Source: Psychroflexus gondwanensis ACAM 44
Lineage (GTDB): Bacteria; Bacteroidota; Bacteroidia; Flavobacteriales; Flavobacteriaceae
Reading direction: 5' to 3'
Assembly: GCF_000355905.1 (NCBI RefSeq)
Contig: NZ_APLF01000008.1
Span: forward strand, 1 to 64,000
DNA length: 64,000 nucleotides
Within the stretch, counting starts at the first letter, position 1, and every line of letters starts with the position of its first letter. Shown here one piece after another: positions 19,384 through 37,145 of the stretch. The notes beneath the pieces are model-generated. The model was not told where the DNA came from and ran no database searches. It worked only from the letters and a program-made list of their open reading frames with translations. Made by a program: the position numbers and the translations under genes.

Positions 19384-20440
19384 AGGCGGGGAGGGGTGGT
19401 AGAGAAAAAAGACTGTTGAGGTGATTTAGAAAAAAGAGAATAGAGCAAAGAGAGGGAAGAAAAAAGACTGTTGAGGTGATTTAGAAAAAAGAGAATAGAG
19501 CAAAGAGGGGGAAGAAAAAAGACTGTTGAGGTGATTTAGAAAAAAGAGAATAGAGCAAAGAGAGGGAAGAAAAAAGACTGTTGAGGTGATTTAGAAAATA
19601 GAGAATAGAGCAAAGAGAGGGAAGAAAAAAGACTGTTGAGGTAATTTAGAAAAAAGAGAATAGAGCAAAGAGAGGGAAGAAAAAAGACTGTTGAGGTGAT
19701 TTAGAAAAAAGAGAATAGAGCAAAGAGAGGGAAGAAAAAAGAGTGTTGAGGTAATTTAGAAAAAAGAGAATAGAGCAAAGAGAAAAAAGACTGGAGAGTA
19801 GAGGTAGACAAAAGAGAATAGAGCAAAGAGAGGAAAGAAAAAAGAGAAAAGAACACAGGATAATGAATATTGAATACAGAACAGGGAATAATGAATGTTG
19901 AATAATGAATATTGAATACTGAACACAGAATAATGAATATTGAATAATGATTGCTGAATAATGAATATAGAATACTGAACACAGAATACTGATCACAGAA
20001 TAATGAATATTGAATAAAGAACAGGGAATAAGGATTGCTGAATACAGAATAATGTACGTCTCTTGTATATGTTGACCATTAAAAGAGCGGAAAACTATGA
20101 AAGCAAATGCACGGAATATTGGCAAGCAAGCTAAATACTCACAAGAATTCAAAAGTATATTGTCACTGAATTTGAGAAAGGAGACTGGGTAGTAGGTAGA
20201 GAAAAGAGAATAGAGAAAGGAGACTGGGTAGTAGGTAGAGAAAAGAGAATAGAGAAAAAAGACTGGAGAGTAGAGGTTGAAAAAAGAGAATAGAGAATAG
20301 AGAAAAGAGAAATAAGACTAGAGATGTAGAGAAAAGACAAAAGAGAATAGAGAAAAAAGAACAAAGATTGTGGAGGAGAGTTAGAGAAAAGACAAAAGAG
20401 AAAAAAGACTGAGTAATCTAGGTTGAAAAAAAAAGGGAAA
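19384..20440 (+). repeat. Purine-rich low-complexity tract 1
   Basis: About 1.05 kb of mostly A/G sequence on the plus strand between convergent genes. It consists of a 55-bp tandem array (separate entry) and a stretch of short units built on AATATTGAATA and GAATACTGAACACAGAA (about 19857-20052). About 105 non-repetitive bases follow (about 20053-20160), then further GAGAAAGGAGACTGGGTAG-type and GAAAAAAGACTG units. The apparent minus-strand open frames here (Leu/Phe/Ser/Tyr/Ile-only proteins) are artefacts of the composition. The words AGAGAATAGAG and GAAAAAAGA also occur in tracts 2 and 3. Confidence 0.9.
19411..19795 (+). repeat. 55-bp tandem array, seven copies
   Basis: Units begin GACTGTTGAGGTGATTTAG and continue with GAATAGAGCAAAGAGAGGGA. 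Starts fall at 19411, 19466, 19521, 19576, 19631, 19686 and 19741, exactly 55 bases apart. Copies differ by one to a few bases; the last starts GAGTG and loses its right end. There are no unique spacers, so this is not a CRISPR. Confidence 0.93.
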
Positions 20441-24239: not shown

Positions 24240-25640
24240 ATGAATACAAAGTACATTGACCTTATAAGTCAAACTTACGAATTTCCTCAAGACGAATTTC
24301 AACTTAAAGACGATCACCTAACATTCCACAACATCGACTTGATGGGATTGGTGGAACAATACGGGGCTCCTCTAAAATTCACCTACTTACCAAAAATTTC
24401 TGAAAATATTCACAGGGCTCAAAAGTGGTTTAAAGATGCCATTGAAAAGCACGATTATAAGGCGACTTACAATTATTGTTATTGTACCAAGAGCTCCCAT
24501 TTTAAGCATGTTCTAGATGAAGCACTCAAAAATGATATTCACATAGAAACGTCTTCAGCATTTGATATAGATATTGTCAATAGCCTTAAGGAACGGGGTA
24601 AGATCACTAAAGATACTTTTGTCATTTGCAATGGCTTCAAGAGAGATCAATATGTTACTAATATTGCTAATCTAATCAATAGTGGGCACCAAAACTGTAT
24701 CCCGGTGATCGATAACTATGAGGAAATCGACTTGTTAACCAAGGAGGTTGATAAAGATTTTAAAATCGGTATCCGAATTGCTTCAGAGGAAGAACCGAAG
24801 TTTGAGTTTTACACCTCAAGGTTAGGGATAGGCTATAAAAATATTATTCCGTTTTACGAAGATCAAATCAAAAATAATGATCAGATAGAATTGAAAATGC
24901 TTCATTTTTTTATCAACACAGGTATAAGAGATAATGCGTATTATTGGAACGAACTTCAGAAGTGTTTACGGGTATATACTCGCCTAAAGAAGGTATGTCC
25001 GAGTCTAGATAGTCTTAATATTGGTGGTGGTTTCCCTATAAAAAATTCACTGGCTTTTGAATATGATTACCAGTATATTATTGAAGAAGTCATCAGTCAA
25101 ATTAAATTGACCTGCGAAGAAGAAGAGGTTCCTGTTCCTCATATTTTTACTGAATTTGGAAGTTTTACGGTGGGTGAAAGTGGTGGTGCCATTTATGAAG
25201 TCTTGTACCAAAAACAACAAAATGATCGTGAAAAATGGAATATGATCAATTCTTCTTTTATCACAACTTTGCCAGATTCCTGGGCGATAAGTAAGCGTTT
25301 TATTATGCTAGCTTTAAACCGTTGGAACGATAGATACGAAAGGGTCTTGCTGGGAGGCTTAACCTGTGATAGTGATGATTATTACAATTCGGAACAACAC
25401 ATGAATGCCATTTATCTACCTAAATACGAAAAGGAAAATCCACTGTATATAGGCTTTTTCAATACAGGAGCCTACCAAGAAACCATAGGCGGTTTTGGCG
25501 GATTGCAGCACTGCTTAATCCCAAGCCCAAAACATGTTTTAATTCAAAAGAACGATGACGGAAGTCTATCAACAGAGCTATTTAGTGAACAACAAAAAAG
25601 TGAAGATTTACTCAAAATTTTAGGTTATCATGGCGTTTAA
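24240..25640 (+). CDS. speA: Arginine decarboxylase (PLP fold III type)
   Basis: The 466-residue enzyme converts arginine to agmatine. It is an alanine-racemase-fold decarboxylase with the PLP lysine in NYCYCTKSSHF (about 79-89), HIETSSAFDI, a GGGFP phosphate-binding loop near 262, and a C-terminal CDSDD motif with the active-site cysteine near 379. It lacks the large insertions of E. coli SpeA, as is usual in Flavobacteriaceae. It overlaps speB by 11 bases, a clear operon for the arginine-agmatine-putrescine route. Confidence 0.88.
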   Translation: MNTKYIDLISQTYEFPQDEFQLKDDHLTFHNIDLMGLVEQYGAPLKFTYLPKISENIHRAQKWFKDAIEKHDYKATYNYCYCTKSSHFKHVLDEALKNDIHIETSSAFDIDIVNSLKERGKITKDTFVICNGFKRDQYVTNIANLINSGHQNCIPVIDNYEEIDLLTKEVDKDFKIGIRIASEEEPKFEFYTSRLGIGYKNIIPFYEDQIKNNDQIELKMLHFFINTGIRDNAYYWNELQKCLRVYTRLKKVCPSLDSLNIGGGFPIKNSLAFEYDYQYIIEEVISQIKLTCEEEEVPVPHIFTEFGSFTVGESGGAIYEVLYQKQQNDREKWNMINSSFITTLPDSWAISKRFIMLALNRWNDRYERVLLGGLTCDSDDYYNSEQHMNAIYLPKYEKENPLYIGFFNTGAYQETIGGFGGLQHCLIPSPKHVLIQKNDDGSLSTELFSEQQKSEDLLKILGYHGV

Positions 25641-26505
25641 AAAAAATTATGCAGGAATTCCAGACAAGTATGCCCGTATCGACGAGGCGAAAGTCGTTTT
25701 AATTCCAGTTCCTTATGATGGAACAAGTTCTTGGCAAAAAGGAGCAGATAAAGGGCCGGAGGCTTTTCTTGAAGCTTCGGAAAATATGGAGCTGTACGAT
25801 ATTGAAACTCGTACTGAAGTCTATAAAAAAGGCATTTACCTTGCCCCAGCAGTTTCAGAGAATAGCTCTCCAGAAAAAATGGTAGAGGCAGTGCATAAAA
25901 CCACTAAGACTTATATCAATCAAGATAAATTCGTCACTATTTTTGGCGGAGAACATTCGGTTTCTATAGGAACCATAAGGGCTTTTCATGAACATTTTCC
26001 AGACCTAACTGTTGTTCAATTAGATGCTCATGCAGACTTGAGGCCTTCTTATGAAGGGAGTGCTTGCAATCATGCCTGTGCCCTTCATGAAGCTAGCAAA
26101 AAAGGGAATCTTCTTCAAGTTGGTATTCGGTCTATGGATGTTTCTGAAGTAGAGCATATGGATGAAAATCGGGTTTATTTTGCTCAAGACTTATATGAAG
26201 ATTGGACTGAAGATGCTATTGGACAAATGACCCCCAATGTTTTTATCACGATAGATCTAGATGCTTTTGATCCTTCTATTATGCCTTCTACAGGAACTCC
26301 AGAACCAGGTGGACTTTTTTGGTACGAGACTTTAGAATTCTTAAAAGAAATTTTTAAAAAGAAAAATGTGGTTGGATTTGATATTGTTGAACTCTGTCCT
26401 AATGAAAATGATAAATCTTCAGACTTTCTTGCAGCTAAATTGTATTATAAAATGTTGAGCTATAAGTTTAAATATGAAAATGGATCTGAAGAAGATGAGG
26501 AGTAG
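25630..26505 (+). CDS. speB: Agmatinase
   Basis: The 291-residue member of the ureohydrolase family cleaves agmatine to putrescine and urea. All manganese-ligand motifs are visible: GGEHSVSIG near residue 108, QLDAHADLRPSYEG near 134, and ITIDLDAFDPS near 211, followed by STGTPEPGG. The start lies inside the end of speA. The coding sequence is followed within about 10 bases by purine-rich tract 2. Confidence 0.9.
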   Translation: MAFKKNYAGIPDKYARIDEAKVVLIPVPYDGTSSWQKGADKGPEAFLEASENMELYDIETRTEVYKKGIYLAPAVSENSSPEKMVEAVHKTTKTYINQDKFVTIFGGEHSVSIGTIRAFHEHFPDLTVVQLDAHADLRPSYEGSACNHACALHEASKKGNLLQVGIRSMDVSEVEHMDENRVYFAQDLYEDWTEDAIGQMTPNVFITIDLDAFDPSIMPSTGTPEPGGLFWYETLEFLKEIFKKKNVVGFDIVELCPNENDKSSDFLAAKLYYKMLSYKFKYENGSEEDEE

Positions 26506-26519
26506 AGTTTAGACGGTGG

Positions 26520-27172
26520 ATAGAGAGGGTTGATAAAATAGAAAAAAGAGAATAGAGCAAGGAGAGAAAAGAGGAAAATAGAACAGGGAGAAGGAAGAGA
26601 GAGAAAATAGAAAAAAGAGCAAAGAGGAAAATAGAGAATAGATAATAGAAAAAAGAGAGAGAAAATAGAGAAATTAGAAAAAAGAGCAAAGAGGAAAAGA
26701 GAAAAAAAGAGAATAGAGAATAGTGAGAAAATAGAAAAAAGAGGAAGATAGAGAAAATAGAGAATAGAACAAGGAGAGGGAAGAGAGAGAAAATAGAGAA
26801 ATTAGAAAAAAGAGCAAAGAGGAAAATAGAAAAAAAAGAGAATAGAGAATAGTGAGAAAATAGAAAAAAGAGGAAGATAGAGAAAATAGAGAATAGAACA
26901 AGGAGAGGGAAGAGAGAGAAAATAGAAAAAAGAGAATAGAGCAAGGAGAGAGAAATTAGAAAAAAAAAGAGAATAGAGAATAGGGAGAAAATAGAAAAAA
27001 GAACAAGGAGGAAAATAGAGAATAGAACAAGGAGAGGGAATAGGGAGAAAATAGAAAAAAGAGCATAGAGCAAGGAGAGAGAGAATAGAATAAGTAGAAA
27101 ACAGGAACAAAGAGAGAGAAAATAGAGAATAGAAAAAAGAGGATAGAGAAAGAAAATAGAACTAGGGGATGT
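26520..27172 (+). repeat. Purine-rich low-complexity tract 2
   Basis: About 650 bases made almost only of A and G with regular ATA, built from variants of GAAAATAGAAAAAAGAG, GAATAGAGCAAGGAGAG and GGAAGAGAGAGAAAATAG. A longer internal duplication has a period of about 129 bases (for example GAGGAAGATAG at 26741 and 26870). C is nearly absent and T occurs mostly as single bases. It fills the gap between speB and the four-helix-bundle gene. The long minus-strand frames are composition artefacts. Confidence 0.92.
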
Positions 27173-27243
27173 AAGTGCAAAAAAATGATTTAAGTACTGA
27201 TGAAAATTTAAAGTTGAGTGTATTGTTATTAAAATCAATTCCG

Positions 27244-27597
27244 ATGGCTAAAAGGCACAACTATAAAAATTTGAGTATTTGGAAATTGGGTCTTGAAATT
27301 GCTTTCAATGTTTCTGATATTATAAAAAAATTCCCCGAAATTGAAAGATTTGCACTCTCCGATCAAATGAATCGTTGTTCGATTTCTATACCCAGTAATA
27401 TAGCTGAAGGTTCCGCTAGAAGTCAAAAAAGCTTTAAATATTATGTAAATATAGCAATGGGGTCTTCTTTTGAATTAGGCACACAATTACTTATTGCCAA
27501 GCATAGAGCATATATTACAGAAGCCGAATTTGAAATGATAGAGGCTAAGATTGAACATTTTCAAAGAATGGCATCTGGTTTTCAAAATCAGCTTTAA
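27244..27597 (+). CDS. Four-helix-bundle protein (23S rRNA IVP / S23 family)
   Basis: The 117-residue protein has the family's opening YKNLSIWKLGLEIAFNVSDI, the central SDQMNRCSISIPSNIAEG (about 42-59), and helices ending EFEMIEAKIEHFQRMASGF. Known members are encoded in 23S rRNA intervening sequences or as stand-alone genes of unclear function; the related Avd protein serves diversity-generating retroelements. Here it is alone. A GTG 69 bases upstream is in frame but the ATG gives the conserved N-terminus. Purine-rich tracts of about 650 bp lie on both sides, beginning within 3 bases of its stop. Confidence 0.88.
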   Translation: MAKRHNYKNLSIWKLGLEIAFNVSDIIKKFPEIERFALSDQMNRCSISIPSNIAEGSARSQKSFKYYVNIAMGSSFELGTQLLIAKHRAYITEAEFEMIEAKIEHFQRMASGFQNQL

Positions 27598-27599
27598 GT

Positions 27600-28262
27600 T
27601 AGGGAGAAGGACGGGAGAACAAAGACAAGAGAACAAGGAGAAAAGAACAAAGACAAGAGAACAAGGAGAAGAGAATAAAGAACAAGGAGAAGAGAATAGA
27701 ACAAAGAAGAACAAGGAGAAGAGAAAAAAAGAACAAAGAGAAGAGAAAATAGAAAAAAGAACAAAGAGAAGAGAAAATAGAAAAAAGAACAAAGAAGAGA
27801 ACAAAGAAGAAAGAACAACAAAGAACAAAGAACAAAGAAGAACAAAGACTGGAAGAACAAGGAGAAGAGAAAAAAAGAACAAGGAGAAGAGAAAATAGAA
27901 AAAAGAACAAAGAGAAGAGAACAAGTAGAAAAGAACAAAGAGAAGAGAACAAGGAGGAAAGAACAAAGATAGGAGAACAAGGAGAAAAGAATAAAAAACA
28001 AAGAACAAAGACAAGAGAACAAAGAACAAAGACAAGAGAACAAAGACAAGAGAACAAAGAACAAAGACTAGCAAAACAGAGACAAGAAGAACAAAGATTA
28101 GAAGAGAAAAAAGGTGGAAGAATAAGGAGAAAAGAACAAAGAAAAGAACAAAGAAGAGAACAAAGAAGAGAACAAAGAACAAAGACTAGCAAAGCAGAGA
28201 AGAAAGAACAAAGAAGAACAAAGACAAAGAAAGACAGAGAATAAAGAAAATAGAGTAAAGAA
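27600..28262 (+). repeat. Purine-rich low-complexity tract 3
   Basis: About 660 bases of A/G-rich units dominated by GAACAAAGA, GACAAGAGAACAAGGAGAA and GAAAATAGAAAAAAGAACAA. Unlike tract 2, C recurs once per unit. It begins immediately after the four-helix-bundle gene and ends about 140 bases before the deoxyhypusine-synthase-like gene. A plus-strand open frame through it gives only Glu/Lys/Arg/Asn/Gln/Thr and is not credible as a protein. Confidence 0.92.
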
Positions 28263-28404
28263 GTTAACCAATAAAAAAAATAGGTTTTTTAAAAAGGTAT
28301 TCAATGCCTAAAATCTATTTCTATAGAAATTTAAATATAATTACAAAACTCCTTTTTCTTAGTTCTAACTATTTTTCTATTGTTTAAATTATATAAAAAA
28401 AATT

Positions 28405-29373
28405 ATGAGTAAACCTATTACAGATTTTATTGAAAAGTACTATCTCCATTTTAATGCGGCTAGCTTAGTTGATGCTGCCAAAGGATACGAAAAGCAATTG
28501 GAGGGTGGGGCAAAAATGTTGGTGTCTTTAGCTGGTGCAATGAGTACGGCTGAACTTGGTAAAATATTTGCTGAGATGATTCGTCAGGACAAGGTGCATA
28601 TCATTTCTTGTACTGGAGCCAATTTAGAAGAAGACATCATGAACTTAGTGGCTCATTCTCATTATAAGCGTGTTCCAGAATACCGAGATTTGACACCTCA
28701 AGACGAATGGAATTTATTAGAAAAGGGTTTAAATAGAGTTACTGACACTTGTATTCCTGAAGAAGAAGCCTTTAGGCGTATACAGAAGCATATCGTTAAA
28801 ATTTGGAAAGAGGCGGAAGCAAACGGAGAACGTTATTTACCTCATGAGTATATGTATAAACTTCTGCTTTCGGGAGTTTTGGAAGAGCATTACGAAATTG
28901 ATATTAAAGACTCCTGGATGTATGCTGCTGCAGAAAAGAACTTGCCTATTGTAGTCCCAGGATGGGAAGATAGCACGATGGGAAATATATTTGCTAGCTA
29001 TGTCATGAAAGGAGAGCTTAAGGCCTCTACGGTTAAATCTGGGATTGAGTATATGACGTTTCTAGCCGATTGGTACACCGAAAATTCTAAACAAGGCATA
29101 GGATTTTTCCAAATTGGAGGCGGTATTGCTGGTGATTTTCCTATTTGTGTAGTTCCAATGCTTTACCAAGATATGGAAAGAACCGATACTCCTTTTTGGA
29201 GTTATTTCTGTCAAATATCAGATTCTACGACAAGTTATGGATCGTATTCTGGAGCAGTTCCTAATGAGAAAATCACTTGGGGAAAACTGGATATGAATAC
29301 TCCAAAATTTATTATTGAAAGTGACGCTACTATAGTAGCACCGTTAATTTTTGCTTACCTATTGGAGATGTAA
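28405..29373 (+). CDS. Deoxyhypusine synthase-like enzyme (possible homospermidine synthase)
   Basis: The 322-residue NAD-dependent enzyme is of the deoxyhypusine synthase fold. It contains SLAGAMSTAELGK, the HIISCTGANLEED nucleotide-binding segment (about 65-78), IGFFQIGGGIAGDFPI near 232, and PNEKITWGKLD near 292, where the WGK lysine matches the catalytic lysine of eukaryotic DHS. Bacteria lack eIF5A, so the known alternative is transfer of an aminobutyl group to another polyamine. The upstream arginine decarboxylase and agmatinase supply putrescine and support that role, but the product is inferred. Confidence 0.8.
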   Translation: MSKPITDFIEKYYLHFNAASLVDAAKGYEKQLEGGAKMLVSLAGAMSTAELGKIFAEMIRQDKVHIISCTGANLEEDIMNLVAHSHYKRVPEYRDLTPQDEWNLLEKGLNRVTDTCIPEEEAFRRIQKHIVKIWKEAEANGERYLPHEYMYKLLLSGVLEEHYEIDIKDSWMYAAAEKNLPIVVPGWEDSTMGNIFASYVMKGELKASTVKSGIEYMTFLADWYTENSKQGIGFFQIGGGIAGDFPICVVPMLYQDMERTDTPFWSYFCQISDSTTSYGSYSGAVPNEKITWGKLDMNTPKFIIESDATIVAPLIFAYLLEM

Positions 29374-33266: not shown

Positions 33267-36200
33267 ATGATAAAAATTTACACTTCTATTTTGTTTATCC
33301 TTTTATCCATTTCTCTAGGATATAGTCAAAACAATCCGCCAATTATTGAGCAAGAACCCAGTCTTGTGGTTTTACAAAATATTCCACAAAATTTGGACTT
33401 GGATGAATTAAATATCAATGTAACAGATTTAGATGATGACAACGTTATAGTATCTTCATCAGTTTCTCAATATGACTGTGACAATATTTCTGTACTTACT
33501 TTAGCTCAAGGATATGGTAATGGAGCATCTAATACACTTGGTGCGGGTAATGTACAAACCTTTAAATCTATTTCTACGGGCTTTATAACAAAGCTAGCTG
33601 TCGAATTTAGAGGAAGCTCAACTTCTACGACACAGGCAGAAATTGAAGTTTATCGGAATAATAATTTCGATCCAAATTCAGCAACAGATGTAGAGCTTAT
33701 TGGAACCCTAACCCTAAACATTCCAACTGGATTTAACGTAATGGGCGAAGGAATCTTTGACAAACCTATTTATCTAGAAGAAAATAGAATGTATGCATTT
33801 AGAAAGGTTTCTGGTCCTGGTATTCTCATGAGACAAGGCTCATTTTACTACCCAGGAAGAACTTTTAATCATGATTTTGATAATACATTGATTATTAATG
33901 AAAGTGGTGGGACCAATAATGATTGGAAGTTTTCAATTACTCAATACGCTTTGAGTGGCTTAAGCCCTCTTACAGTTCCAGTGACGGCAGATGATGGTAC
34001 AGATCAAACTACAGCTAATGTAGAAGTGTACCACCTTTCTGAAGTATTACCGACCATCATCACCCAAGATATTTCTGTTAATCTTGATGAAAACGGTAGT
34101 ATAAATATTACTCCACAGCAAATCGATAGTGGTTCAACTACTGCATGTGGCGGTAATTTAACTTTAACCTTAGATGTTGACAATTTTGATTGCACAACTA
34201 TTGGCCTCAACACGGTGACTTTAACTGGAGAAGACGAATTTGGAAATTCCGCAAGCGCTACTGCAATTGTTACAGTAGTAGATGATTTAGCTCCAGTGTT
34301 GAACTGCAACGAGGATATAGAAGTCACAACACTATCAAACTCCCAAATTGTGAATTACACACTTCCAACTTTCTCGGATAATTGCCTAGGTGAGAATCTA
34401 GAATTTCCTGCTTTATCTGGAGGATTTAGTCTTATGGGGACATTTAATAATCATACTTATTATATTTCAGATCAATCTTTTGAAGATATCCAAGATCATT
34501 TGAATACTATAAATGAAATAGACGAAGGATTTCCAGTTGCTATTAATTCAGCTCAAGAAAATGATTTTATTACATCTAAAATTGTAGAACTTGGTTTTAA
34601 TAATGTCCTTTTAGGAGCAATAAGGACAAGTCCTACCGATTTTGAATGGATAAACGGAGAACCTTTTATATATACCAATTGGTCAGATAATGAGCCTAAC
34701 AATTCTAATGGAGTTGAAGATAAAGTAGAAATACTAAACACTGGTTTGTGGAACGATGCTGGAGCAACACCTTTAGCTAGAAGAATAATTATTGAATTTC
34801 CTTTTACGCTTACTCAGACCGAAGGTTTAGCAAGCGGCTCGGAGTTTCCAAGAGGCACAACTACCAATACGTTTGAAGTTACTGACAGTTCTGGAAATAT
34901 AGGAAGCTGTAGTTTTGATGTGGATGTAGTTAAAATAGAAACTCCTGTAATCATTACTCAAGATATAGAAATTGCTCTGGATGAAAATGGAGCCGCAACA
35001 CTATCTCCCGAAGATATTGATAATGGCTCAACTAGTTTTAAAGTTGAAGAACAATACATACCAATAGCGAATCAATATGTTATTAGTTATAACGTGGATG
35101 ACTTTTTTGAAGAAATACCAGCTCAGGTAATAACTACTACTGAAGATTATACAGACCTCACTATTGACTTAGATTTAGCCACTTGTAAGCAAAATGGCTT
35201 AACAGGTGCAATACTTGAAATTGTTACGGTTGATCCTGCCACTGGAGAACCTCAGTTAGATAATGTTTTAGGAAGTTCCAGTGTAGATTCTTCACAAATT
35301 TATGGATGGGAAGGCTGTGTGCCCGGGACTTTTGGAAGAGTATCATTCGACTTTTCAGAGATAAATCTATCGGGTGGTACATATGCTTTAGTTTTAAGAA
35401 GCTCTGAATCTACTGGAGAAATTGCTTGGAGAAGATCATCCATACCAACGGATCCAAGTAACCCTTATAATGGAGGTAATCTTTGGACGTACGATTCTTT
35501 TTTTTCAGGCGAATGGATGGAGAATTCAAATTTAGATTTACAATTTATTCTCAAAACTTCAACGCTCCTAACAACAACTTTGGACATTACAGAATTCACC
35601 TGCGATAATCTTGGAGAAAATACAGTGACTCTAACTGGAGAAGATGATTTCGGAAATTCTGCAACTGCTACTGCAATTGTTACAGTAGTAGACAATCTTG
35701 CACCAACAGTTGTTACTCAAGATATTACCGTAGAACTAGATGAAACTGGATCTGTTTTCATCAGTGTTGACGACATAGATAACGGTTCATCAGATAATTG
35801 TAGTCTCACCAATTTATCTTTGGACATTACAGAATTCACTTGCGATAATCTTGGAGAAAATACAGTGACTTTGACCGGGGAAGACGATTTCGGAAATTCT
35901 GCAACTGCCACTGCAATTGTTACTGTAGAGGATAATCTTGCACCATCATTAACCACTCAGGATATTACTGTAGAACTAGATGAAACTGGATCTGTTTCCA
36001 TCAATGTTGACGGCATAGATAACGGTTCATCAGATAATTGTAGTCTCACCAATTTATCTTTGGACATTTCAGAATTCACTTGCGATAATCTTGGAGAAAA
36101 TACAGTGACTTTGACCGGGGAAGACGAATTTGGAAATTCCGCAAGCGCTACTGCAATTGTTACAGTTGTAGATAATCTTGCACCATCATTAACCATTCAG

Positions 36201-37145
36201 GATATTACCGTAGAACTAGATGAAACTGGATCTGTTTCCATCAATGTTGACGACATAGATAACGGTTCATCAGATAATTGTAGTCTCACCAATTTATCTT
36301 TGGACATTACAGAATTCACTTGCGATAATCTTGGAGAAAATACAGTGACTTTGACCGGGGAAGACGAATTTGGAAATTCTGCAACTGCTACTGCAATTGT
36401 TACAGTAGTAGACAATCTTGCACCAACAGTTGTTACTCAAGATATTACCGTAGAACTAGATGAAACTGGATCTGTTTTCATCAGTGTTGACGACATAGAT
36501 AACGGGTCATCAGATAATTGTAGTCTCACCAATTTATCTTTGGATATTACAGAATTCACTTGCGATAATCTTGGAGAAAATACAGTGACTTTGACCGGGG
36601 AAGACGAATTTGGAAATTCCGCAAGCGCTACTGCAGTGGTTACTGTAGAAGACAATTTGGCTCCATCATTAACCACTCAGGATATTACATTAGATTTAGC
36701 AGGAAATGCTTCAATAAGTATTTTGCCTAATGATGTTTTAGATCAAGTCACCGATAATTGTACAAATAGCGAGAACATAACTTTGAGTTTAGATGTTGAC
36801 ACATTTACTTCTACAGGCACCTATACAGTTAGTTTAACAGGGGTCGATGAAGAGGGAAATTCTATAAGTATGTCTGCTCAAGTAGTAGTTGATGATACCC
36901 TAGGTACAAATGATGTTAATTTTAATTCAGGCCTTTCGTTATATCCTAACCCTGCAATAGACAGGATTACAATTGAACATCAAAACAGCCCTATAGATCA
37001 AGTTGATGTTTTTGATATCAATGGGCGACTTGTTAAAGCTAGTAGAGAAGTTCAATTGGATGTGAGTTCACTGTCAAGTGGTGTGTATATTGTAAAAGTA
37101 AGATCGAACCAAAAACATGCTTTCATTCGCTTTATAAAGCAGTAA
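33267..37145 (+). CDS. Large modular T9SS-secreted adhesin with lectin-like insert and Ig-like repeats
   Basis: The 1292-residue secreted protein has a signal peptide ending GYSQ and HYR/Ig-like modules with the recurrent TVTLTGEDEFGNSA motif. A C-type-lectin-like domain (about 389-512) contains INGEPFIYTNWSDNEPNN. A beta-sandwich insert of about 185 residues lies near 590-775. Near-identical 80-residue repeats run from about 772 to 1138. The C-terminus is a T9SS sorting domain with LYPNPAIDRITIE. No ATG matches the first in-frame codon (TTG at 33252), so ATG at 33267, directly before the signal peptide, is preferred. A role in carbohydrate or surface binding is inferred from the domains. Confidence 0.88.
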   Translation: MIKIYTSILFILLSISLGYSQNNPPIIEQEPSLVVLQNIPQNLDLDELNINVTDLDDDNVIVSSSVSQYDCDNISVLTLAQGYGNGASNTLGAGNVQTFKSISTGFITKLAVEFRGSSTSTTQAEIEVYRNNNFDPNSATDVELIGTLTLNIPTGFNVMGEGIFDKPIYLEENRMYAFRKVSGPGILMRQGSFYYPGRTFNHDFDNTLIINESGGTNNDWKFSITQYALSGLSPLTVPVTADDGTDQTTANVEVYHLSEVLPTIITQDISVNLDENGSINITPQQIDSGSTTACGGNLTLTLDVDNFDCTTIGLNTVTLTGEDEFGNSASATAIVTVVDDLAPVLNCNEDIEVTTLSNSQIVNYTLPTFSDNCLGENLEFPALSGGFSLMGTFNNHTYYISDQSFEDIQDHLNTINEIDEGFPVAINSAQENDFITSKIVELGFNNVLLGAIRTSPTDFEWINGEPFIYTNWSDNEPNNSNGVEDKVEILNTGLWNDAGATPLARRIIIEFPFTLTQTEGLASGSEFPRGTTTNTFEVTDSSGNIGSCSFDVDVVKIETPVIITQDIEIALDENGAATLSPEDIDNGSTSFKVEEQYIPIANQYVISYNVDDFFEEIPAQVITTTEDYTDLTIDLDLATCKQNGLTGAILEIVTVDPATGEPQLDNVLGSSSVDSSQIYGWEGCVPGTFGRVSFDFSEINLSGGTYALVLRSSESTGEIAWRRSSIPTDPSNPYNGGNLWTYDSFFSGEWMENSNLDLQFILKTSTLLTTTLDITEFTCDNLGENTVTLTGEDDFGNSATATAIVTVVDNLAPTVVTQDITVELDETGSVFISVDDIDNGSSDNCSLTNLSLDITEFTCDNLGENTVTLTGEDDFGNSATATAIVTVEDNLAPSLTTQDITVELDETGSVSINVDGIDNGSSDNCSLTNLSLDISEFTCDNLGENTVTLTGEDEFGNSASATAIVTVVDNLAPSLTIQDITVELDETGSVSINVDDIDNGSSDNCSLTNLSLDITEFTCDNLGENTVTLTGEDEFGNSATATAIVTVVDNLAPTVVTQDITVELDETGSVFISVDDIDNGSSDNCSLTNLSLDITEFTCDNLGENTVTLTGEDEFGNSASATAVVTVEDNLAPSLTTQDITLDLAGNASISILPNDVLDQVTDNCTNSENITLSLDVDTFTSTGTYTVSLTGVDEEGNSISMSAQVVVDDTLGTNDVNFNSGLSLYPNPAIDRITIEHQNSPIDQVDVFDINGRLVKASREVQLDVSSLSSGVYIVKVRSNQKHAFIRFIKQ
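35581..36680 (+). repeat. 240-bp tandem repeats within the adhesin gene
   Basis: The sequence TGGACATTACAGAATTCAC (with one or two variant bases) recurs at 35581, 35821, 36061, 36301 and 36541, exactly 240 bases apart, each start of an 80-residue module. Some neighbours are almost identical and some share patches with non-adjacent units (for example the GTTTTCATCAGTGTTGACG variant in units 1 and 4). This indicates recombination among repeats. Confidence 0.92.

Follow-up and report, generated by a model that had tools for sequence, protein, structure and literature searches.

The window, by which we mean the whole 64,000-nucleotide stretch of Psychroflexus gondwanensis ACAM 44 DNA that was analysed, contains a polyamine gene cluster with Pfam matches to a decarboxylase, an agmatinase-like, a deoxyhypusine-synthase-like (DHS-like) and a C-N hydrolase gene (Table 1). 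A sequence-only reading of this DNA had described a block interrupting such a cluster, and these matches bear it out. Between the agmatinase-like and DHS-like genes we found an IVP/S23-family gene, and its PF05635 match confirms the 117-codon four-helix-bundle gene proposed in the same reading; the open reading frame spans 27175–27597 (+) from a GTG, and the ATG form is listed in Table 1. Purine content reaches 85% or more per 100 bp from 26497 to 27188 and from 27590 to 28267, with purine fractions of 0.883 and 0.885, so the two long purine tracts described earlier are present (~670 bp and 88% purine each) and only the term "near-pure" was slightly generous. In dinucleotide-shuffled windows (n = 5), the maximum was 77 purines per 100 bp and was never exceeded. 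The repeats reported by Tandem Repeats Finder in the tracts include periods of 7, 9, 14 and 28 as well as 4.3 copies of a 129-bp unit.

Table 1. Features of the interrupted polyamine operon and of the related repeat tract in the window.
Feature	Position	Strand	Support
Solo repeat tract without IVP gene; 18-mers in common with the upstream arm	19403..20413	not assigned	Tandem Repeats Finder
Pyridoxal-dependent decarboxylase gene, host polyamine operon, upstream context	24240..25640	+	PF02784 E=7e-15
Agmatinase/arginase-family gene; its stop marks the left edge of the insert	25630..26505	+	PF00491 E=1e-62
Upstream arm: degenerate ~7-nt words (AGAATAG, GAAAATAG), purine tract, GC skew +0.84	26506..27188	+	
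IVP/S23-family four-helix-bundle gene, 117 codons, pI 9.1	27244..27597	+	PF05635 E=4e-29; PDB 2gsc E=1.7e-14
Downstream purine tract, on the same strand as the upstream one; words GAACAAA / GACAAGA	27600..28267	+	
Terminal pyrimidine segment: short downstream arm, complementary to upstream-tract words	28349..28395	+	shuffle test
DHS-like gene; its start marks the right edge of the insert	28405..29373	+	PF01916 E=2e-44

The only Pfam matches of the framed gene are PF05635 and a weak resemblance to bAvd (PF22296, E = 6e-5, 23.9 bits; curated cut-off 40). The PDB entry that its protein matches, 2gsc, is XCC0516, which we take to be the Xanthomonas campestris S23p reported as a toroidal homopentamer in PMC4990558. 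The same paper describes IVP/S23 proteins as having no known function, and four-helix genes are listed in PMC5524665. The protein is basic like most of its family, in which pI exceeds 7 for 102 of 124 members.

Two features of the window were absent from the sequence-only reading: the pyrimidine segment near the right border and the repeat tract at 19403–20413. When we compared the pyrimidine segment to the upstream tract, the complementarity score was reached in 5 of 1000 shuffles, and when we compared it to the downstream tract, the score was reached in 57 of 1000. The 19403–20413 tract shares 9 of 480 distinct 18-mers with the upstream arm and 0 of 492 with the downstream tract, and an HMM scan found no IVP remnant in it. 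A search of the genome with the tract-word pattern (at most 3 mismatches) gave 15 matches, all inside these three tracts. The 19403–20413 tract lies ~6 kb from the upstream arm, between a TonB-receptor-like gene (identified by eye) and a convergent gene, and is made of several word families, including a 55-bp unit repeated 8 times and 14-bp units. Elsewhere in the window, a large protein gene contains a 240-bp unit repeated 4.6 times (35578–36688).

We found the DHS-like gene in 39 genomes of a family set of 60 and in 20 of a genus set of 27 (the P. gondwanensis genome is counted in both), and we surveyed its upstream junction in 50 loci scanned by script, with 15 spacers read. The same junction occurs without the insert in related genomes. 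Of 29 loci from the family's other genera, 25 have a DHS-like start that directly adjoins or overlaps the agmatinase stop (gap –5 to +1); the remaining four comprise one 65-bp spacer, one locus with another gene and two without an upstream agmatinase match. Members of the genus itself often have an expanded junction. An orthologue of the IVP gene occurs in L171 (96.6% identical), L173, L174 and L176, with shorter tracts and related words; in eight other genus loci the spacer measures 17 to 291 bp and lacks the gene, and remnants of repeated words persist in some of these (L172, L175, L177); and three keep the overlap (L185, L186, L187). In another genus member, L181, the same junction holds a different insert (0–938 past the agmatinase stop) with heptamer-like words at both borders and two small ORFs that by eye resemble a toxin-antitoxin or PIN-type pair. 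In the loci with the gene, the segment that immediately precedes the DHS-like gene complements the upstream tract, and the observed score was reached in 2 (L171), 0 (L173), 2 (L174) and 2 (L176) of 500 shuffles; in five gene-free loci, the corresponding counts were 2 (L172), 20 (L175), 46 (L177), 99 (L178) and 152 (L179) of 500. Because the terminal segment complements the upstream tract both here and in the orthologous loci, we read the order at this locus as purine tract, gene, purine tract and short pyrimidine arm.

Of 60 family genomes, 45 contain a PF05635 match, as do 45 of 61 genomes of the phylum Bacteroidota (44 of 61 over the cut-off); there are up to 16 per genome and 7 in P. gondwanensis. 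Inspection of IVP flanks by eye, in part of the loci, suggested arrays of words that change from one locus to the next, the words downstream being reverse complements of those upstream. To quantify this, we scored the upstream flank against the reverse-complemented downstream flank and obtained a median of 18 for 54 IVP genes as compared to 11 for 894 other genes in the same 60 stretches; 16 of the 54 were above the 99th percentile of the control genes. We then collected loci more widely. The HMM was built from proteins of 100–160 aa (a 27-sequence alignment, A1, had proved too diverse for locus scans), the ORF picker took the wrong frame in a few cases, and 167 IVP hits gave 124 unique loci with at least 300 bp on both sides. 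The early loci were the best match per genome, later ones came from further down the lists, and one set was the best 80 of 588 relatives; removing near-identical genes took the full set from 218 to 205. Nominal p-values overstate independence here, because loci share orthologous sites.

In the 205 loci, the inverted-arm median was 36 for matched pairs and 22 for mismatched pairs, on a score scale that differs from that of the 894-gene control. Inverted-arm scores exceeded the 95th percentile of the mismatched pairs at 131 of the 205 loci and the 99th at 83, leaving 74 that do not pass the 95th; direct arm similarity exceeded the 95th percentile in 41. Among 82 ORFs with 200-bp flanks (from 87), sorted by record title, inverted arms passed in 28 of 48 loci labelled Bacteroidota and in 26 of 34 not so labelled, the latter including 2 Ignavibacteria and 4 without a named phylum. 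On cyanobacterial plasmids, 7 of 12 IVP loci passed (12 fetched of 28 plasmid records with a match). In three plasmid loci (L352, L354, L361), the IVP gene lies inside an annotated CRISPR-cas operon, twice with cas6/cas4 and once with cmr2/cmr3. That a framed gene and its flanking repeats form one unit, as had been suggested for this locus alone, is thus supported on a wider scale than could be seen from the window.

IVP flanks also have a characteristic period. In the lag spectrum of 120-bp flanks from 206 loci, we found peaks at 7, 14, 21 and 28 (0.367, 0.348, 0.341 and 0.309) over values of roughly 0.28–0.30, and in the same spectrum the IVP genes themselves have no peaks at these lags. On the sense strand of the upstream arm, G outnumbers C in 117 of the 131 passing loci, C outnumbers G in 10 and the two are equal in 4. 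Arms are G-rich after a stop (skew +0.38) and C-rich before a start (–0.36; 79 loci). With neighbouring genes called by a simple ORF picker, 104 of 121 IVP genes have co-directional neighbours, as compared to 325 of 537 controls, and the median gaps to those neighbours are 59 and 47 bp. At 17 loci with non-co-directional neighbours, several of which are one site in different genomes, the upstream skew is positive in 13 and the downstream skew negative in only 9. What IVP loci have in common is the 7-nt period and the inverted, locus-specific words; the purine make-up is peculiar to the P. gondwanensis site. Purine-richness, taken from this locus as a possible shared feature, had to be rejected as such, since a purine-rich stretch is found in only 6 of 206 IVP loci and 4 of the 6 are one site (this locus and three relatives).

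We also searched for other small gene families with the same arms. By eye, 29 genes singled out of 624 control genes (L081–L123) contained no other recurrent family, and 5 of the 29 had heptamer arrays within 150 bp on both sides, at 42 to 216 bp from an IVP gene, with one at 1288 bp.

To compare genome sets, we counted intergenic 7-nt arrays with one fixed detector. In 786 kb of IVP-bearing stretches there were 28 arrays at no more than 250 bp from an IVP gene and another 28 at greater distances; random stretches of 16 IVP-bearing genomes had 2 in 400 kb, and eight genomes without an IVP match had 0 in 400 kb. For P. gondwanensis, there were 11 arrays in 54 kb of IVP stretches and 0 in 340 kb of random stretches. 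In the IVP-bearing stretches, lag 7 accounted for 56 arrays and lag 8 for 11, as compared to 0 to 2 for each of lags 4–6 and 9–12. The farther arrays tend to resemble the IVP arms of their own stretch, which ranked first of 41 in 9 of 33 cases and in the top three in 16. On contig C9 of P. gondwanensis (L121, 1076–4661), four CACTCAC-type arrays follow one another in one gene cluster, as if the words had spread between neighbouring junctions.

Perfect arrays, defined as three copies of TAACTGA or GAACAAA, were found in 18 (TAACTGA) and 3 (GAACAAA) of 395 genomes scanned. We examined 23 distinct places, which are part of the perfect-array sites in those genomes, and found that 21 have no IVP gene within 1.5 kb and only 2 have one; therefore, solo arrays are the rule for perfect arrays. 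Of the 21 array-bearing genomes, 18 have an IVP match and 16 have one over the curated cut-off, only slightly more than the background frequencies (45 and 44 of 61). The enrichment of repeats beside this gene family proposed in the sequence-only reading holds for arrays within 250 bp (21 of 48 IVP genes and 42 of 515 distant genes), but most perfect arrays are elsewhere. At the 18 solo TAACTGA places, a strong inverted partner (score 24 or more) lay on the convergent side in 6 and on the divergent side in 0; a simple comparison of the two sides gave 10 convergent, 7 divergent and 1 equal (Wilcoxon p = 0.044). Solo-array geometry thus partly agrees with that of IVP arms.

To follow the arms through time, we compared loci at three orthologous sites (18, 16 and 7 loci). 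Arm match within a locus was 31.2, 36.0 and 41.1, as compared to 22.2, 23.8 and 31.1 between loci; therefore, both arms change words together. On a weakly resolved tree, site 3 needs 1 change among grouped rows and 3 counting all rows, and the 18 genes of site 1 need 7 and 9 (shuffled mean 14.5); with few changes at one site and more at the other, junctions seem to be both inherited and revisited. A single IVP origin at site 1, the commonest junction, is unsupported by these 7 (9) changes on a poorly resolved tree. Sites 1 and 2 (for example L101, L103, L108, L112) are by eye junctions of a beta-oxidation-like operon that hold IVP units in 18 and 16 of the 206 loci, an apparent insertion hot spot.

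The IVP protein is under purifying selection: same-site pairs, defined by a similar neighbour on either side, have a median dN/dS of 0.12 and a maximum of 0.28 (79 of 106 pairs with usable dS). Closely related IVPs at different sites sometimes have words in common. Mean word similarity is 18.8 at 40–50% identity, 22.0 at 60–70% and 38.6 above 70%, the last from only 10 pairs, of which one is truly the same site and several others are unalike. A few pairs (L241/L242) suggest that the unit may have moved to a new site. A telomerase-like word template, one per genome, is not supported, as 100 same-genome pairs have a mean similarity of 23.2 and 4595 different-genome pairs one of 24.0.

The best reading of these data, to which we give about an even chance of being correct, is a widespread IVS-like insertion unit in which an IVP/S23 gene lies between foldback arms of ~7-nt words, the upstream arm G-rich on the sense strand and the downstream arm reverse-complementary to it, inserted at operon junctions. 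The P. gondwanensis locus is then best explained as an overgrown copy of such a unit, and in this account as a whole our confidence is evenly balanced. The arms would be copied and matched at the DNA level, by slippage in a 7-nt register and by foldback copying of one arm from the other. In P. gondwanensis, tandem duplication may have expanded each arm to ~670 bp, leaving a further tract on the same strand ahead of a short complementary terminus. The basic protein, with a relative reported as a ring-shaped homopentamer, would putatively bind folded arms, single-stranded DNA or the transcript, and such binding may help the unit persist or spread. Counting against the insertion unit, the main downstream tract of the window's locus is direct rather than inverted and its terminal arm is short, and most perfect arrays are solo, with 3 of 21 array genomes lacking an IVP match and 5 having none over the curated cut-off.

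The arms could instead act in the transcript: paired as a panhandle in the mRNA, they would be cut by RNase III, and removal or neutralisation of the insert would make it tolerable to the host operon. This anatomy is that of rRNA IVS (PMC4990558), and both the sense bias inside operons (104/121) and the complementarity of the arms (131/205) fit it. RNA pairing would be expected to tolerate G-U mismatches, but these were not enriched over the mirror class (319 vs 349, p = 0.26, 205 loci; 161 vs 184 in the 124-locus sample; 237 vs 230 in the 83 best loci), and the G-rich arm is still upstream of the IVP gene at 13 of the 17 sites with non-co-directional neighbours. RNA pairing as keeper of the arm match was therefore set aside, on a test blind to selection for near-perfect duplexes, and we infer that DNA copying is favoured. 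Arms that diverge between species yet remain complementary are a case of concerted evolution in which RNA pairing does not look like the driving force. We consider the transcript-level account unlikely, if still a serious contender.

A passive origin, in which polymerase slippage makes heptamer arrays at junctions that tolerate them and IVP genes simply arrive or persist at those places, we regard as improbable. Solo arrays are indeed plentiful (21 of the 23 perfect-array places), slippage of 7-nt units was proposed earlier, according to PMC4679880 and PMC4692102, and the 129-bp unit points to tandem growth in the window's tract. Slippage alone leaves unexplained why arms around IVP genes are inverted and mutually matched, why their strand bias is tied to IVP orientation and why both arms change jointly at orthologous sites. 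That the protein is an Avd-like partner of a reverse transcriptase writing words in trans, as the weak bAvd resemblance (23.9 bits, below the cut-off of 40) might hint, is very improbable and for RVT_1-type enzymes largely refuted: words are not shared within a genome, RVT_1 matches occur in only 19 of 60 family genomes, and since the IVP-rich genomes G006, G007, G019, G027, G028 and G031 have none, a reverse transcriptase seems unneeded.

Heptamer repeats of Cyanobacteria are known as STRR. Extending the insertion unit to such repeats, we tentatively propose, with less than even confidence, that a bacteria-wide class of foldback elements has its autonomous, protein-coding form in the PF05635 IVP genes, and that the solo arrays and hairpins of this class would be the heptamer repeats (STRR, TAACTGA, GGGAATC); the protein would act on its own arms, which would be rewritten together at the DNA level so that each copy has a private word. 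The arms found on both sides of most of ~200 IVP relatives, from many kinds of bacteria, suggest a protein partner for heptamer repeats.

Among known systems, REP sequences accompany RAYT proteins, which are Y1/HUH transposases. The sequence-only reading had likened this locus to them, and the logic agrees, with a repeat-framed gene and, elsewhere, solo arrays of which some may be hairpins; membership does not, since the framed gene is not a Y1/HUH transposase and words are not conserved within a genome. The protein belongs to a four-helix family related to DGR Avd, but its bAvd match is below the cut-off, there is no adjacent reverse transcriptase gene and the genome's sole RVT_1 match is on contig C29. 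The likeness to rRNA IVS, also raised at the outset, is closer in anatomy: as described in PMC4990558, an IVS has an IVP-family ORF between complementary terminal arms, and here too a PF05635 ORF over the cut-off lies between complementary termini (131/205 loci; at the window's locus, the short terminal arm at 5/1000 shuffles). As to membership, the unit differs, in that it sits in a protein-coding operon with agmatinase-like and DHS-like neighbours and not in 23S rRNA, and its class has arms that are 7-nt-period arrays of locus-specific words.

The other half of the comparison is with heptamer repeats, which PMC4679880 and PMC4692102 describe without a protein or mechanism. In PMC4679880, TAACTGA arrays of one Beggiatoaceae genome are mostly just 5' of start codons and also occur in Cyanobacteria and Bacteroidetes, with no evident transfer mechanism. 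In PMC4692102, the heptamers GGGAATC and GGGGA(C/T)T lie within 50 bp after stops (sense) or before starts (antisense), convergent pairs are reported in Xanthomonas, and the heptamers have no known function. A term search of the main texts of both papers found no mention of S23 or four-helix, and a search of mainly open-access literature, in part limited to the top-ranked matches, found no paper joining IVP genes to heptamer arrays. Like these repeats and the cyanobacterial STRR, the arrays described here consist of 7-nt words, are mostly intergenic between aligned genes and have their G-rich strand in sense orientation downstream of a stop or in antisense orientation upstream of a start (+0.84 in the window's upstream tract); periods of 7, 14 and 28, among others, recur in its tracts as in STRR-type repeats. 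Unlike them, the arrays here frame IVP genes and use many different words. IVP/S23 proteins are widespread (45 of 61 Bacteroidota genomes sampled), and if IVP genes and heptamer repeats are halves of one unit, both puzzles could be tested with one purified protein and one deletion.
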